A stretch of 64,000 nt of DNA, taken from NCBI GenBank assembly GCA_007121455.1, contig SKKN01000007.1:1-64000 (forward strand). The letters run 5' to 3'. Origin of the DNA: Gemmatimonadota bacterium. GTDB taxonomy: Bacteria; Gemmatimonadota; Gemmatimonadetes; Longimicrobiales; Gaopeijiaceae. A model generated the notes under the pieces. The model saw only the letters and a program-made list of their open reading frames with translations. It was not told the origin of the DNA and did no database searches. The position numbers and the translations under genes were made by a program. Shown piece by piece: positions 50,721-57,294 of the stretch (the first letter of the stretch is position 1; every line of letters begins with the position of its first letter).

Positions 50721-50749
50721 TTGATCCGCCGCAAGCCCGCGGTTATCTT
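50721..50749 (+). promoter_or_regulatory. Sigma-70-type promoter for lepA
   Basis: TTGATC (50721-50726) and TATCTT (50744-50749) are spaced by 17 bases in the gap before lepA, giving a transcription start near 50756, about 40 bases before the GTG start. This is one of the best promoter matches in the window and probably drives the long plus-strand run. Confidence 0.6.
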
Positions 50750-50795
50750 GATTCCCGTTCGACCCACCCGTACCGAGAGGCGAGGTCCACCCTTC

Positions 50796-52595
50796 GTGCG
50801 CATCGACCATATCCGCAATTTCTGCATCGTCGCCCATATCGACCACGGGAAATCCACCCTGGCCGATCGGTTGCTCGAGGCGACCGGCGCGCTCGACTCT
50901 CGCGCGATGAGGGAACAGGTCCTCGATTCGAACGAGCTCGAGCGGGAGCGCGGAATCACGATCAAGCTCCACGCCGTTCGGATGGACTATGTCACGAGGG
51001 AGGGGGCGAACTACGAGCTCAACCTCATCGACACCCCCGGGCACGTGGATTTCACGTACGAGGTGTCGCGCTCCCTGGCCGCCTGCGAGGGGGCCCTCCT
51101 CATCGTGGATGCGAGTCAGGGAATCGAGGCTCAAACGCTCTCCAACCTCTTTCTCGCGATGGAGGCCGACCTCGAGATCATCCCGGTGTTGAACAAAATC
51201 GACCTTCCGGCGGCAGAGCCGGACAAGAGGCGGGAGGAGCTTTCGGATCTCCTTGGGGTCGATCCCGAGGAGATCCTCGCGGTGAGCGCGAAGGAGGGGA
51301 CGGGCATCGACGCGATCCTCGAGGCCGTCGTCTCCCGCATTCCACCCCCGGAAGGTGATCCCGAAGCTCCCCTCCGGGCGCTCATCTTCGACTCGGAATA
51401 TGACAAATACCTCGGAGCGGTACCGAGCGTGCGGGTCGTGGATGGGCGACTGCGGCGGGGAATGCATATCTCGTTCGGGGCTGCGGATGAGGAGTACGAG
51501 GTGTCGGAGGTCGGGTTCCAGCGGCTCAAGCGTGTGCCGCAGGACGAACTCGGGCCAGGGGACGTGGGATACGTGGTGGCTGGGATCAAGGAGGTGTCCC
51601 ACACTCGCGTGGGGGATACCGTACTCGACGTCGAGAACCCGTCCCCGGACCTCCTCCCAGGCTACCAGGAGGTCCGACCGATGGTCTTCGCCGGCCTCTA
51701 TCCCACCCAGTCGGACGACTTCGAGGAGCTCCGCGAAGCGCTGGACCGCCTGAGCCTGAATGACGCGGCCCTGCGCTTCGAGCCCGAGAGCTCTGCAGCG
51801 CTTGGGTTCGGTTTTCGATGTGGCTTCCTGGGGCTGCTCCACATGGAGATCGTCCAGGAACGTATGGCCCGAGAGTTCGGCGTGGAGCTCATCACGACCG
51901 TTCCGAACGTGGAGTACCATGTACGGCTCACGTCCGGGGAGCACGTCACAGTGGAGAACCCGACGACGCTCCCGGACCGCGGTCGGATCGATTCGATTTC
52001 CGAGCCGGTCGTTCGGGCACGGATCCTTTGTCCCGCGGACTACATCGGAAACGTCCAGAAGCTCTGCCACGACCGGCGCGGGATCTTCCGCGGGATGCAG
52101 TACCTCGATCTTCGGCGCGTCGAGCTCGACTACGAGTTGCCGCTCGCCGAGATCGTGCTCGACTTCTATGACAAGCTCAAGAGTGGGACGCGGGGATATG
52201 CGGCGCTCGACTACGAGTTCCTGGAGTACCGGGCGGATGACCTCGTCCGATTGGACATCCTCCTCAACGGGGAGGCCGTGGACGCCTTCTCCATCATTCT
52301 TCATCGGGAGAAGGCGGAGGAGTATGGTCGAAGCCTGGTCAAGCGGCTGCGTGAGCTGATCCCTCGCCAGCAGTTCGAGGTGGCTCTACAGGCCACGATC
52401 GGGAGCAGGATCGTGGCCCGTGAATCCGTGCGCCCGTACCGTAAACAGGTGACTGCGAAGTGCTACGGCGGAGATGTCTCGAGGAAGAGGAAGCTGCTCG
52501 AGAGGCAGAAGGAAGGTAAGCGGCGGATGAAGCAGGTCGGTGCGGTCGAGATCCCGCAGGAGGCGTTCCTCGCCGTGCTGTCCCTCGGAGACTGA
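50796..52595 (+). CDS. lepA: Elongation factor 4 (LepA)
   Basis: The 599-residue GTPase has exactly the usual LepA length. G motifs are AHIDHGKST (P-loop), RGITIK (switch), DTPGHVDF and NKIDLP. Diagnostic LepA features are [19 protein letters not shown] and the C-terminal [22 protein letters not shown] tRNA-tip region. It acts on ribosomes, affecting translocation and assembly. GTG at 50796 is chosen because it aligns with [13 protein letters not shown]; an upstream ATG gives an unrelated extension. Confidence 0.96.
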
Positions 52596-52597
52596 CA

Positions 52598-53590
52598 TTG
52601 GATCTCCCCGAGCGCTGGATCGTGGGGGTCGACATCGGAGGGACGAATCTCGTCGTCGGCCTCGTGCCTGCCCGGGGAGGTAATCCGTTCGGTCTGCGTA
52701 CGCAACGAACGCTTTCGGCGGAGGGACCGGAGGCCGTCGTTGCCCGCGTGGTGGATATGGTGGTGGGGGTGCTGGCGGACTTCGAGGCCGAGGGGGGCTC
52801 GAAAGGTGTTGTGGATGGGCTCGGGATTGGATGTCCCGGGCCGCTCGACCGCACCTCCGGGGTCGTGGTCACGACCCCCAACCTCGGATGGACCCGGTTT
52901 CCGGTGCGGGATCGTATCGCAGAGGCGGTCGATCTTCCCGCAGCCCTCGATAACGATGCGAACTGTGCGGTGCTCGGAGAGTGGTGGCAGGGAGCCGGGA
53001 AGGGGAGCCGGGTCCTCGTGGGACTCACCCTGGGGACGGGGGTCGGGGGGGGAATCGTAATCGACGGGCGGATCTTCCATGGGGTAGGGGACGTCGCCGG
53101 AGAGATCGGTCACATGACGGTGGATCTCGATGGACGTCCCTGTAAGTGTGGGAATCTGGGGTGCCTGGAAGCGTATGCTTCCGGCCCGAACATCGCTGCC
53201 CGAGCGGTGGAGGGTCTGGAGTTCGGCGCGAGCTCCATCCTTCCGGACCTGGTGGAGGGAATGCTGAGCGACGTGACGGCCGAGACGATCTCCAGAGCCG
53301 CGGTTCAGGGCGATGCCTATGCGCTCTCGGTGATGCGGGAGACGGCGGAGTATCTCGGGGCGGGTATCGCGAACGTGATGAACCTCCTCAATCCCGACAC
53401 GGTCGTCATCGCCGGGGGTGTCACGCAGGCAGGCGAGCATCTCTTCGCGCCCCTCCAGGAGGTCGTTCGGAAGAGAGCCTTCGCGTCGGCCGTCGACCGC
53501 TGTCGAATCGTCCCGGCCGCGCTACCCGGGACGGCAGGTGTGGTAGGGGCTGCTGCCGTGTTCAAGCAACAAGACACGGGAGGCCTTTGA
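52598..53590 (+). CDS. ROK-family sugar kinase (glucokinase type)
   Basis: The 330-residue ROK protein has the ATP-binding DIGGTNLVVG, NDANCAVLGEWW with the sugar-binding and catalytic Asp, LTLGTGVGGGIVIDG and EIGHMTVD, plus the ROK zinc motif CKCGNLGCLE. It has no DNA-binding domain, so it is a kinase rather than a repressor. Glucose is the likeliest substrate, but N-acetylmannosamine or other sugars cannot be excluded. TTG at 52598 lies three bases after the lepA stop with GGAG upstream. Confidence 0.88.
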   Translation: MDLPERWIVGVDIGGTNLVVGLVPARGGNPFGLRTQRTLSAEGPEAVVARVVDMVVGVLADFEAEGGSKGVVDGLGIGCPGPLDRTSGVVVTTPNLGWTRFPVRDRIAEAVDLPAALDNDANCAVLGEWWQGAGKGSRVLVGLTLGTGVGGGIVIDGRIFHGVGDVAGEIGHMTVDLDGRPCKCGNLGCLEAYASGPNIAARAVEGLEFGASSILPDLVEGMLSDVTAETISRAAVQGDAYALSVMRETAEYLGAGIANVMNLLNPDTVVIAGGVTQAGEHLFAPLQEVVRKRAFASAVDRCRIVPAALPGTAGVVGAAAVFKQQDTGGL

Positions 53591-53597
53591 TCCTGTG

Positions 53598-54623
53598 ATG
53601 GAGCCCGTCTCCCCGGCGGTTGGTGGTGGGCCTGGCCCTCGTCGTCTCGGCGTCGTGGGGACCATGGTATGGGACACCATTCACGCTCGCGACGTTCGGG
53701 ACGGGCCGGTCGAGGAGTGGGGAGGGATTGGATACGCACTGGAAGCTCTCAGCGTCACGCTCCCTCCGTCCTGGGAGATCGCTCCGATCGTGAAGGTGGG
53801 GGAGGATCTCGCGGAGCCCGCGTTCCATTATCTCCGGACCCTGCCCCGGATCAGACTCGAACCAGGGGTCCGGGTCGTGGCGGAGCCGAACAACCGGGTG
53901 GAGCTTCGCTATCGCAACGAGGAGCGAAGGACCGAGCGGCTCACGGGCGGCGTCTCCTCTTGGGCCTGGCCCGAGCTTGCCCCGCTGGTCCGCGAGTGTG
54001 ACGCCCTCTATGTGAACTTCATCTCGGGCAGGGAGATGGAGCTCGAGACGGCCAGGAGCGTGCGGGCGAGCTTCCGGGGCCCCATGTACGCCGACCTCCA
54101 CTCGCTCTTCCTGGGGGTGACTTCGCATGGGGATCGATTCCCACGACCGCTTCCCTTCTGGTCCGAGTGGCTCCGCTCTTTCGATGCAGTCCAGATGAAC
54201 GAGGACGAGTTCCATCTCCTCGGTCGGGCTCGCGGGGATCCGTGGCGCCTCGCTGCCGAGGAGGTGGGCCCCGAGCTCAAGCTGATCGCCGTCACGCTCG
54301 GCGCCGAGGGGGCCGCATACGTGGCGGGGCCCGGTTTCTGCCCCGACCCCTTCTCCTGGCCCGAACTGCGAGACCGGATCGCGATGCCCGGAGCGAGTCG
54401 AAGTGGAAAGGTGTCGTCGGAGGCGGGCCCGGAGGAAGGCGACCCCACCGGTTGCGGTGACGTGTGGGGGGCCACCTTCTTCAGTATGCTACTGGCCGGC
54501 AGCGATTTGGAGAAGGCGATGAGTCGAGCGAACGAGATTGCCCAGCGCAACGTGCAGCATCGGGGGGCGCGCGGGCTCCGCTACCATCTGCAAAACCGAC
54601 TCCCCGGCGAGACGGGAGGATGA
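53598..54623 (+). CDS. PfkB-family carbohydrate kinase-like protein
   Basis: The 341-residue protein has the ribokinase-type fold: an N-terminal LGVVGTMVWDTIH and GGIGYALEALS, a central VQMNEDEFHLLG, IAVTLGAEGAAYV, and a C-terminal active-site DPTGCGDVWGATFF. The last is a variant of the usual DTxGAGD, with the catalytic Asp retained and Cys replacing Ala. Substrate unknown. It starts just after the ROK gene (GTG at 53595 or ATG at 53598) and its stop overlaps the HATPase gene as ATGA. Confidence 0.8.
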   Translation: MEPVSPAVGGGPGPRRLGVVGTMVWDTIHARDVRDGPVEEWGGIGYALEALSVTLPPSWEIAPIVKVGEDLAEPAFHYLRTLPRIRLEPGVRVVAEPNNRVELRYRNEERRTERLTGGVSSWAWPELAPLVRECDALYVNFISGREMELETARSVRASFRGPMYADLHSLFLGVTSHGDRFPRPLPFWSEWLRSFDAVQMNEDEFHLLGRARGDPWRLAAEEVGPELKLIAVTLGAEGAAYVAGPGFCPDPFSWPELRDRIAMPGASRSGKVSSEAGPEEGDPTGCGDVWGATFFSMLLAGSDLEKAMSRANEIAQRNVQHRGARGLRYHLQNRLPGETGG

Positions 54624-55513
54624 AGGTCGTCTCCGTGCCTCCTACGCTGGACGGCCGTACGTTCGACCGACTCGTCGAAGCGCTGCCCGAGGGAGATGCT
54701 TCGAAGGTTCTCTTCGACGCACGGCGGCTCCGCTGGGTGGATCCCATGGGCCTCGTCGGGCTCCTCAGCGCGGGTGCGGTCGTGCAAGCGCGGACGGGCG
54801 AGGCTCCACTCCTTGGGCTTCCGGAAGGAGGAGAGGTTCCCGGATACCTCTCCCGGATGGGGTTCTTTCGGGAGGCCAGCGCGGTCTTCCGGTCGGACTC
54901 CAAGCCTCCGTCGCGGGGCAGCGGCCCCTCGGACGTGCTTCTCGAGATCACCCCGATCAAGGAAAACGGAGACATCCACGATCTGGTGGACCGGGTACAG
55001 GGTCGCGCAGGGGCGATTCTGTCCAGGTCCCTTCATTATCCGGCTACCGCCGTGGTTCAGTTCTCGGTGATTCTCTCCGAGGTCTGCCAGAACATCCTGG
55101 AGCATGCCGAGGCGCCCGGCTGGGTAGCCGCCCAGGTGTACAACTGGACTCAGCGTCTGGGCCGTCCTGTCCTCGTGATCGGTGTCTCCGATCTCGGGCG
55201 AGGCTTCCGCCGCTCCCTGGAAAGCGAGCACGCCGCGCGGTTCGGTGATCGGTGGAGCGACCCCTCGGCCCTGGAGGCGGCCTTCATCCATGGACTCACC
55301 CGGTTCCCGGACTCCGGGCGGGGCCAGGGCATCCAGCAGATCCGGAAGCAGGTTCGCCGCTGGGAAGGGGCGATCTCCATTCGGAGCGGAACGGCCCGGA
55401 TCGCCGACGTTCCGGATTGGGACGACCAGGAACCGCTCGGATCCGATCTCCACCCCTTTCCCGGCGCCCAGATTCACATCGTCCTCCCTGCCCGTTCGGA
55501 CGATGGGGCTTGA
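54620..55513 (+). CDS. STAS-like and histidine-kinase-type ATPase fusion
   Basis: The 297-residue cytosolic protein has an N-terminal STAS-like region (about 1-95; VLFDARRLRWVDPMGLVGLL resembles the STAS loop) and a C-terminal GHKL ATPase. The N-box is SEVCQNILEHA (E154, N158, H162), the G1 box is VSDLGRGF (D191) and the G2 box is GRGQGI (233-238). There is no His phosphoacceptor or membrane segment. This is the build of an anti-sigma-type kinase fused to an STAS element. The ATG at 54620 overlaps the kinase gene stop. Confidence 0.7.
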   Translation: MKVVSVPPTLDGRTFDRLVEALPEGDASKVLFDARRLRWVDPMGLVGLLSAGAVVQARTGEAPLLGLPEGGEVPGYLSRMGFFREASAVFRSDSKPPSRGSGPSDVLLEITPIKENGDIHDLVDRVQGRAGAILSRSLHYPATAVVQFSVILSEVCQNILEHAEAPGWVAAQVYNWTQRLGRPVLVIGVSDLGRGFRRSLESEHAARFGDRWSDPSALEAAFIHGLTRFPDSGRGQGIQQIRKQVRRWEGAISIRSGTARIADVPDWDDQEPLGSDLHPFPGAQIHIVLPARSDDGA

Positions 55514-56114
55514 GTTCATGGATGCCCGTTCGATCGATGTGAGCCGGTTGGTGGAGCGGAAGGTCGCAAGCCTCTACTCCCATCTCGTTACGCGCCCTAC
55601 CGGCAGGGCCGTCCGGATGGCGATCGAGGCTCGCCTGGGCGGCGTTTCGAGACCGTCGGTTTCACTGATCGACCTCTCGGAGGTGACCGTGCTCGACTTC
55701 TCGTGCGCGGACGAAGTGGTGGCGAAGCTCCTCCTCCGGTACCGCGAAACCCGGTCCGGGTCCGAGACCTTCTTCATCTTTCGCGGCGTCGCCGAGGCCC
55801 ACCGGGAGCCGATCGAAGCAGTGCTCGATCGCCAGAACCTCGCGGCCGTCGCCGAGACAAAGCCTGAGAGGTTCGAGCTTCTCGGAACCCGTTCGGCCGT
55901 CGAGCATGCGGTCTGGGATGCGTTGGAACGAAAAGGTGTGCTGACGTTCGAGGAATCCAGGTCCCTCTTCCCCCGGGAGGTCGAACGCAGCGTGCTGGAC
56001 CGGCTCACGGAGCGGCGCGTCGCGCTACGAAGCGGGAACTCCGGCGCCTACCATGCGCTGAGCGGCTTCGTATCGGGGGAGGGGGGGCCACGGGATGGAG
56101 GGGGGGATGGCTAA
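55503..56114 (+). CDS. STAS-like (DUF4325-type) protein with winged-helix-like tail
   Basis: The 203-residue protein has a middle STAS-like segment, VSLIDLSEVTVLDFSCADEVVAKLL, resembling DUF4325 or STAS cores. The C-terminus looks like a winged helix (AVWDALERKGVLTFEESRSLF through LTERRVALRSG). There is no catalytic domain. Its start overlaps the preceding ATPase stop by 11 bases; an ATG at 55518 is an alternative. The coupling suggests it is the substrate or partner of that ATPase. It overlaps the next PLP-enzyme gene. Confidence 0.65.
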   Translation: MGLEFMDARSIDVSRLVERKVASLYSHLVTRPTGRAVRMAIEARLGGVSRPSVSLIDLSEVTVLDFSCADEVVAKLLLRYRETRSGSETFFIFRGVAEAHREPIEAVLDRQNLAAVAETKPERFELLGTRSAVEHAVWDALERKGVLTFEESRSLFPREVERSVLDRLTERRVALRSGNSGAYHALSGFVSGEGGPRDGGGDG

Positions 56115-57294
56115 ACGCGGCGGGTCCGCGAGGAATGCGCGCACCGCAGCCATCCATCCGAAGGGTGCCGAGCGGGTCGAGGGCTCACCGGTCGTGGCCC
56201 CGCTCGTCCAGAGCGCGACCTTCTACGGAGGTGGCAGGGAAGGGCTCCGCGAGCCTCTGTACTCACGGTATGGGAACAACCCGACGCAGCGGGCGGTGGC
56301 CGACAAGGTCGCCGAGCTGGAGGGCATGGAGGCGGGGGTCGTCCTGGGGAGCGGGATGGCGGCTGTCGCGATGACGGTGCTCGCACTGACCCGGAAGGGT
56401 GACCATATCGTCTCTTCCGCCTCCTTGTACGGCGCGACGGAACTTCTCTTCAGGGAGGAGCTTCCCCGCCGCGGCGTGGAGGCCTCCTTTGTGGAGCTCG
56501 ATCGGCCCCGGGGCTGGGAGGAGGCGCTGCGAGCCAACACCCGGATCATGTACCTCGAGCTCCCGACGAACCCGGGTCTCCGGATTCCCGATCCCCGCCC
56601 CGTCGCCGAACTCGCTCACGCGAACGGCATCGTGCTTGTAGCCGACACCACCTTCGCGACACCGTTCAACCTTCGCGCCCGCGACCACGGCGTGGACGTC
56701 GTGGTTCAAAGCGCGACGAAGTATCTCGGAGGGCATTCGGATCTGGTGGCCGGTGTGGTGACGGGTCCCGAGGTGGTCCTGGCCAGGGTGGAGGCCATGC
56801 TCCGACTCTACGGGCCGGCGCTCGATCCCCATGCGGCGTGGCTTCTCGACCGGGGTCTTCGCACCCTTCCTCTTCGGGTCCAGACCCAGAACCGGACCGC
56901 GCGGGTTCTCGCTCAATGGCTGGAAGGCCGTGCCGAGGTCGAGCGCGTCCTCTATCCGGGACTCCCCGGACATCCCGATCACCATCTCGCTCGGGAGATG
57001 TTCCGGGGCCACGGTGGGGTACTCGCCGTGGTGCTCCGTGGCGGAGCCCCTGCTGCCGACGCATTTTGCTCCGCCCTGGAGGTCGCGGCGCCGGCCCCCA
57101 GCTTCGGAGGACCGGAGACGCTCGTCTCTCAACCGCGCTTCACCTCCCATCGCGGTGTGTCACAAGGGGAGCTGGACGCCCAGGGCATCGTAGAGGGATT
57201 CGTGAGGATTGCAGTCGGCCTGGAGGATCCGGATGACCTTCAGCGGGATCTGGAGGGTGGGCTGGCGGCGGCCACGCTCCGTGGATCGGTTTGA
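56095..57294 (+). CDS. Cys/Met metabolism PLP-dependent enzyme (cystathionine gamma-synthase/lyase family)
   Basis: The 399-residue enzyme is a member of the Cys/Met PLP family. PLP and substrate motifs are YSRYGNNPTQ, GSGMAAVAMTVLAL, SLYGATELLF, LELPTNPGLRIPD, ADTTFATPFN and the PLP Lys in QSATKYLGGHSDLVAG, then RVLYPGLPGHPDH and a C-terminal GPETLVSQP. The family includes synthase, beta/gamma-lyase and methionine gamma-lyase, which cannot be told apart safely here. It may start at 56095 or 56107 and overlaps the STAS-like gene. Confidence 0.88.
   Translation: MEGGMAKRGGSARNARTAAIHPKGAERVEGSPVVAPLVQSATFYGGGREGLREPLYSRYGNNPTQRAVADKVAELEGMEAGVVLGSGMAAVAMTVLALTRKGDHIVSSASLYGATELLFREELPRRGVEASFVELDRPRGWEEALRANTRIMYLELPTNPGLRIPDPRPVAELAHANGIVLVADTTFATPFNLRARDHGVDVVVQSATKYLGGHSDLVAGVVTGPEVVLARVEAMLRLYGPALDPHAAWLLDRGLRTLPLRVQTQNRTARVLAQWLEGRAEVERVLYPGLPGHPDHHLAREMFRGHGGVLAVVLRGGAPAADAFCSALEVAAPAPSFGGPETLVSQPRFTSHRGVSQGELDAQGIVEGFVRIAVGLEDPDDLQRDLEGGLAAATLRGSV

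Follow-up and report, generated by a model that had tools for sequence, protein, structure and literature searches.

A core gene pair of Gemmatimonadetes encoding a STAS–GHKL protein and its STAS-like partner as a probable switch of the CapK/CapS kind

Two coupled genes (gene 1 and gene 2, Table 1) lie in the 64-kb window, that is, the whole stretch of Gemmatimonadota DNA analysed here. The host operon is tightly packed, its genes overlapping or standing a few bases apart, and no intergenic space for local operator sites was found around the pair in the window. A first-pass annotation, made from the letters of the same DNA, had described the two reading frames as overlapping and had placed them among metabolic kinase genes. 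Both observations hold: the frames share 11 nt (an overlap that disappears if the in-frame ATG at 55518 is taken as the gene 2 start), and genes for a ROK and a PfkB kinase stand upstream in what is a conserved operon. Likewise, no sigma factor was found within the window, where the annotation had seen none to fit the pair, nor in the conserved operon; the genome has 14 Sigma70_r2 matches, of which the nearest lies 359 bp past the window end on the opposite strand.

Table 1. Positions of the gene pair, its conserved motifs and the host operon in the window; residue numbers refer to the respective protein.
Feature	Position	Strand	Remark
Host operon: lepA / ROK-family kinase / pfkB-family kinase / gene 1 / gene 2 / cystathionine-synthase-like PLP enzyme	50721..57294	+	
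Gene 1, CapK-like, STAS + GHKL ATPase	54620..55513	+	297 aa
Gene 1 domains			N-terminal STAS about 1-95; C-terminal GHKL/SpoIIAB-type kinase domain about 103-294
Gene 1 STAS D41-P42-M43-G44	54740..54751	+	P42 68/68, G44 68/68
Gene 1 N box E154-x3-N158-x3-H162	55079..55105	+	spacing as in CapK E214-N218-H222
Gene 1 hairpin Q172-x-Y174-x-W176-xx-R179-xx-R182	55133..55165	+	all five residues invariant
Gene 1 G1 box D191-x-G193-x-G195	55190..55204	+	conserved in homologues
Gene 1 G2 box G233-R-G235-Q-G237	55316..55330	+	3' of conserved ATP-lid segment
Gene 2, CapS-like, STAS-like + winged-helix-fold tail	55503..56114	+	203 aa
Gene 2 domains			STAS-like (DUF4325-related) about 7-128; winged-helix-fold about 130-190
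Gene 2 segment LVTRPTGRAVR (28-38)	55584..55616	+	L28, T30, R31, T33, G34, V37, R38 invariant, n=79
Gene 2 D65-[FY]-S67-C-A-D-E-V-V-A-K-L76	55695..55730	+	Ser67 aligns with phosphorylated CapS Ser54
Gene 2 winged-helix-fold tail (130-190)	55890..56072	+	fast-evolving, mean net charge about -1

The residues of the GHKL N, G1 and G2 boxes, already recognized in the gene 1 product from the single sequence, are invariant in 68 homologues with the exception of G233 (66/68). Pfam returned only HATPase_c, HATPase_c_2 and STAS_2 for the protein in the window, all below cut-off, and the same three families matched 43/45, 44/45 and 33/45 of the family members, respectively; no HisKA/DHp domain was found by Pfam, in agreement with the earlier remark that a phosphoacceptor His is missing. 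The AlphaFold model (pLDDT 89.5) has its closest fold in SpoIIAB (Z 13.7, 2.5 Å over 135 residues), and its N-terminus matches the STAS anti-anti-sigma homologue TM1442 (Z 10.2), which bears out the STAS-like character ascribed to this part. The genome's own RsbV reads YIDSSGLG, with Asp-Ser-Ser-Gly where the STAS loop of gene 1 has D-P-x-G; as the Pro and Gly of this loop are invariant, the STAS domain of gene 1 appears unlikely to act as a phosphoacceptor.

The model of gene 2 has a pLDDT of 90.2. Structure alignment of its STAS core gave SLC26A9 (Z 8.2), RsbS (Z 7.5) and SpoIIAA (Z 7.1), STAS proteins ranking top only in a second look by VIA-align, and residues 130–190 were matched to winged-helix folds with Z 4.1–4.6, e.g. 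that of MecI. The STAS-like core and winged-helix-like tail proposed in the first-pass annotation are thus both recovered in the model; lack of a DNA-binding fold in the C-terminal part had been named as an argument against that reading. Foldseek with the model gave no match below E 0.001, and PDB sequences searched with a profile of gene 2 gave nothing up to E 10; it took a true CapS as query to arrive at the CapS structures present in the PDB (9z71–9z73). No Pfam family matches gene 2, the curated cut-off of DUF4325 (PF14213) not being passed and this family being touched by 1/65 gene 2 relatives (E 0.099); NCBIfam holds no family for either protein. Among 79 gene 2 sequences, conservation is strongest in LxTRxTGxxVR (28–38) and DxSCADEVVAKL (65–76). 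The annotation had suggested looking for a conserved Ser or Thr in the STAS part, and such a residue is present in the second of these stretches: Ser67, in a STAS helix, is invariant (79/79), and D65-x-S67-C68 aligns with D52-x-S54-F55 of CapS (WP_001567865.1), whose Ser54 is the phosphosite. The position of Ser67, one residue off the usual anti-anti-sigma site, at first appeared discrepant; this was resolved by CapS, in which S54 is also found at D-x-S. Mean pairwise identity is 35% in the tail versus 56% in the STAS part.

Both genes occur together in 237 of 249 Gemmatimonadota genomes, 11 genomes have neither and one has gene 1 alone, so the co-occurrence that had been proposed as a check is extensive. 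Six of the genomes with neither gene belong to a family outside the class (f10), and two to another family (f8). Of 39 relatives, all have gene 2 and 38 have gene 1, in almost every case as a single good copy. Gene 1 lies directly upstream of gene 2 in 80/80 fetched loci, and the two overlap by 1–11 nt, most commonly by 4 nt, in 53/68. The neighbourhood is similarly retained: of the 80 loci, many of which are truncated at contig ends, 70 include PfkB, 66 the PLP enzyme, 62 LepA and 56 ROK. The PfkB–gene 1 spacing is -4 in 33/62 loci, and in many genomes the pair overlaps its neighbours on both sides; consequently, any target promoter is more likely to lie upstream of the operon or elsewhere. 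A gene inserted between gene 1 and gene 2 in one family (f3) was considered as a phosphatase and rejected, as it encodes a cyclophilin-type peptidyl-prolyl isomerase and not a PP2C. Protein distances correlate with those of LepA, r being 0.88 for gene 1 and 0.81 for gene 2, compared with 0.88 for Mrp; this indicates vertical inheritance, and the pair is hence a vertically inherited core gene pair of Gemmatimonadetes, the main class of the phylum. A role of the pair as a simple substitute for LexA was also considered and discarded, LexA DNA-binding domains being present in 119/121 genomes, including most of the searched genomes that lack the pair. A literature search for this pair in Gemmatimonadota found no paper.

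Relatives outside the phylum were reached through gene 1 and a pair from Nostoc, a tblastn search of plasmids with gene 2 giving no match. This pair, which was itself found via gene 1 and has the same layout, is encoded on a plasmid of Nostoc NIES-25, next to genes for an E2-ThiF fusion and for a protein of the MBL fold. Its partner protein led to Vibrio plasmid pairs with the layout of the CapK/CapS pairs (PMC13373217). Together with these, a copy on an Enterobacter plasmid was recovered; its CapS, WP_001567865.1, is the one used in that study. Further pairs were found on a Cytobacillus plasmid and in Marinitoga phage MPV1, the latter being the one, distant, pair in the phage collection. In profile comparisons, gene 1 matched the Nostoc protein with 99.6% probability, the CapK family with 98.7%, Marinitoga with 97.9% and Cytobacillus with 96.9%, versus 4.9% for the genome's own RsbW. 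The corresponding values for gene 2 are 88.4% for Cytobacillus, 63.7% for Nostoc and 41.9% for the CapS family, versus 3.7% for the RsbV of the genome. As these comparisons were one-to-one, the contrast with the RsbW/RsbV controls counts more than the absolute values, and the match of gene 2 to CapS is modest when taken alone. In a kinase tree, CapK (100/99) and the Gemmatimonadota proteins (95/99) form separate supported groups, so that the latter fall outside the CapK clade, with Nostoc and Cytobacillus nearer the Gemmatimonadota side on long branches with weak support.

The DUF4325 domain was found in 13 of 150 Gemmatimonadota searched, mostly fused with STAS and GHKL in a single protein. 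These proteins resemble the pair in both functional halves and read SFADE where gene 2 has SCADE, but differ in being single chains of sporadic occurrence that have no winged helix; the natural fusion argues that the two halves interact physically. The Nostoc, Cytobacillus and Marinitoga pairs similarly consist of a STAS(-P-x-G)-GHKL protein followed by a STAS-like partner, which carries a wHTH in Nostoc and Cytobacillus. They differ in being mobile and only about 18–29% identical, in adjoining ThiF genes (Nostoc, with E2-ThiF plus MBL, and Cytobacillus) or in having a partner without a winged helix (Marinitoga phage). VapKSC, in which the VapC toxin is bound by the STAS domain and the C-terminus of VapS (PMC13373217), also has a STAS-GHKL kinase without an HTH and a STAS partner with a conserved Ser/Thr. 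In the Gemmatimonadota, however, a PLP-enzyme gene follows gene 2, no VapC/PIN toxin gene is present in the operon and gene 2 carries a winged-helix-fold tail. On sequence grounds, the pair is placed in a broad CapK/VapK–CapS/VapS–DUF4325 superfamily, comprising a STAS-GHKL kinase and a STAS-like partner with an x-x-S-[FC] site.

CapK/CapS is the closest characterized relative. It consists of a kinase that phosphorylates a DNA-binding repressor, normally controlling anti-phage genes (Chambers et al., EMBO J 2026, PMC13373217), and it is situated upstream of an immune operon in 348/443 cases; Gemmatimonadota are not named in the main text of that paper. Single-stranded DNA activates CapK, CapS is then phosphorylated on S54, and the CapS dimer dissociates and leaves the DNA (PMC13373217). 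Phosphorylation is strongly reduced in CapK N218A, Trp68 is required for activation by ssDNA, K237 and K239 were modelled in contact with the ssDNA, and the N-terminal HTH of CapK is dispensable; in CapS, DNA is contacted by N145 and G169-G170 (PMC13373217). The Gemmatimonadota pair shares with this system the adjacent genes with the kinase first, the combination of a STAS-GHKL kinase with a STAS-wHTH partner, and independence of a sigma factor. Every CapK kinase motif is kept in gene 1, the E/N/H spacing of the N box being identical, and the D-x-S site is invariant, with Ser67 at the position of CapS S54.

The differences are concentrated in the putative sensor, in the output residues and in the genomic setting. 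With the STAS domain at its very start, gene 1 lacks the N-terminal HTH of the HTH-STAS-GHKL layout. Trp68 is invariant in six CapK proteins, whereas gene 1, in a low-identity alignment, has no invariant aromatic residue in that loop. A further difference is the invariant Pro in the STAS loop of gene 1. The gene 1 hairpin 172–182 occupies the place where K237 and K239 of CapK were modelled touching ssDNA; since Y174, W176, R179 and R182 of this hairpin are invariant, the groove may sense with other residues or bind another ligand. Neither N145 nor GG169-170 of CapS is found in gene 2. Furthermore, the pair is located in a lepA-ROK-pfkB-PLP-enzyme housekeeping operon rather than beside immune genes, and is part of the vertically inherited core, its overlapping genes leaving no room for a local promoter.

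The pair can probably be understood as a switch made of a kinase and its substrate that works without a sigma factor, belongs to the CapK/CapS superfamily and has become fixed in the core genome of the class, away from immune operons. Gene 1 would be a Ser kinase that binds gene 2 as its substrate, as SpoIIAB, RsbW and CapK bind their STAS partners, and would sense a signal, for which the groove separating its STAS domain from its GHKL domain is the probable site. Upon this signal it would phosphorylate Ser67 of gene 2, a phosphotransfer that we infer from the alignment of Ser67 with CapS S54, the recurrence of this Ser in related partners and the shared N-box spacing. By analogy with CapS, where the system operates by phosphorylation-driven dimer dissociation (PMC13373217), phosphorylation would then break the gene 2 dimer, and the winged-helix tail would release its cargo, most likely DNA. 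Dissociation with release of DNA is accordingly modelled on CapS, and binding of DNA by the tail is suggested by its predicted fold. Of the earlier proposal of a sigma-independent ATPase/STAS partner-switching module, the central part, a sigma-independent STAS/GHKL switch, can be retained, given the joint conservation of the genes, the invariant Ser and the kinship with CapK/CapS; for partner switching in the strict sense, a third partner or dedicated phosphatase was not identified, and no PP2C phosphatase is encoded in the conserved operon of the pair.

The same kinase-substrate switch could alternatively have protein binding as its output, the gene 2 tail holding another protein that is released when Ser67 is phosphorylated. 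This would fit a tail that lacks the DNA contacts of CapS, evolves fast and is net acidic, as well as the absence of operator space near the genes and the existence of related systems, the Marinitoga phage pair without a winged helix and VapKSC. However, charge is weak evidence, as some true CapS tails are likewise zero or negative in net charge, and the winged-helix fold is confidently predicted in the gene 2 model. Moreover, related plasmid proteins of the same layout have been annotated or shown as DNA-binding regulators (PMC13373217), and housekeeping enzymes are the only candidate partners conserved beside the pair. An output through protein binding is therefore regarded as unlikely, while deserving consideration.

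Considerably less probable is a canonical module of the RsbW/RsbV type, in which gene 1 would sequester a sigma factor encoded elsewhere, with gene 2 as the anti-anti-sigma factor. The kinase fold and the STAS substrate fold are indeed those of SpoIIAB/SpoIIAA and RsbW/RsbV, SpoIIAB being the nearest fold of gene 1, and the genome offers sigma factor candidates in its Sigma70_r2 matches, including the one just beyond the window. Still, RsbW and RsbV of this genome are practically unmatched in the profile comparisons, and the same genome has a separate canonical RsbV-RsbW-PP2C cluster (at C28) with a strong PP2C match. Both proteins also have an extra domain, STAS in gene 1 and a winged helix in gene 2, and the operon is conserved without a sigma factor. 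Similarly improbable is a gene 1 product that serves as an ATPase or an ATP-binding scaffold rather than as a kinase, nucleotide binding driving the switch and Ser67 being kept for structure. The whole DxSCADEVVAKL stretch is invariant, so that the conservation of Ser67 alone is no proof of phosphorylation, but gene 1 retains all CapK kinase motifs, the Glu and Asn of the N box among them, and the Ser is shared by the CapS, DUF4325, Nostoc and phage partners, although the rest of the stretch varies among them.

The pair is thus a new, core-genome variant of the CapK/CapS kind, with differing sensor and output residues. More tentatively, a circuit of Ser kinase and repressor of the CapK/CapS type may have become fixed throughout the class as a core regulator that has no part in immunity and whose sensor has changed. 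In this view, the role of the ssDNA-sensing Trp has passed to the Y174/W176/R179/R182 hairpin and a STAS domain locked by Pro, so that a different ligand is read and chromosomal housekeeping genes are controlled; this possibility is put forward with due reserve. If true, it would point to a common ancestry of the core switch and immune CapK/CapS in a one-step Ser-kinase signalling module that needed no sigma factor. The 2026 description of CapK/CapS concerned a regulator located beside mobile immune operons (PMC13373217). A relative that is inherited vertically across a whole class, mostly in single copy, and lies outside immunity would show this kinase-repressor chemistry to be a more general mode of signalling. 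The more than 200 paired sequences constitute a natural set for dissecting kinase-substrate recognition, and for the Gemmatimonadota, a poorly studied phylum, the pair would be a core regulator specific to them and open to direct testing.

The genome that carries the core pair also encodes a canonical RsbV–RsbW–PP2C phosphatase cluster, located apart from the pair, in which RsbV displays the motif YIDSSGLG and a Rex-like gene follows downstream. The nearby Sigma70_r2 match lies in a 218-aa frame of ECF-like size, approximately 8 kb from gene 1 and gene 2 and on the opposite strand.

Coordinates of features by genome and contig (G000, the genome of the window)
Feature	Location	Strand	Remark
RsbV–RsbW–PP2C cluster (L128)	G000:C28:124127-126521
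Sigma70_r2 match	G000:C51:64359-64553	-	359 bp past window end
Second STAS-GHKL protein (L153)	G024:C35:16952-17356

In family f3, a gene for a cyclophilin-type peptidyl-prolyl isomerase separates gene 1 from gene 2 (loci L132, L133, L134, L135, L138 and L139). The second STAS-GHKL protein of G024 is an orphan with no recognisable partner, and a formyltransferase-like gene is found in its vicinity. Some Gemmatimonadota combine STAS, GHKL and DUF4325 in one chain (loci L115-L126). One of these, L121, matched the N-terminal part of the PADLOC DrmA (DISARM) model with an E-value of 6.8e-40, the corresponding value for gene 1 of the window being 1.3e-11.

On plasmid2 of Nostoc NIES-25 (L113), the genes downstream of a CapK/CapS-like pair encode a protein with an MBL fold as well as a Prok-E2_A/ThiF fusion; they constitute a ubiquitin-like operon whose role is probably immune. 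Within Gemmatimonadota, a DUF4325 match adjoins a CapK-like GHKL match in one f10 genome (G044:C20, L120/L155), from the class without the core pair, and possibly represents an independent member of the superfamily.
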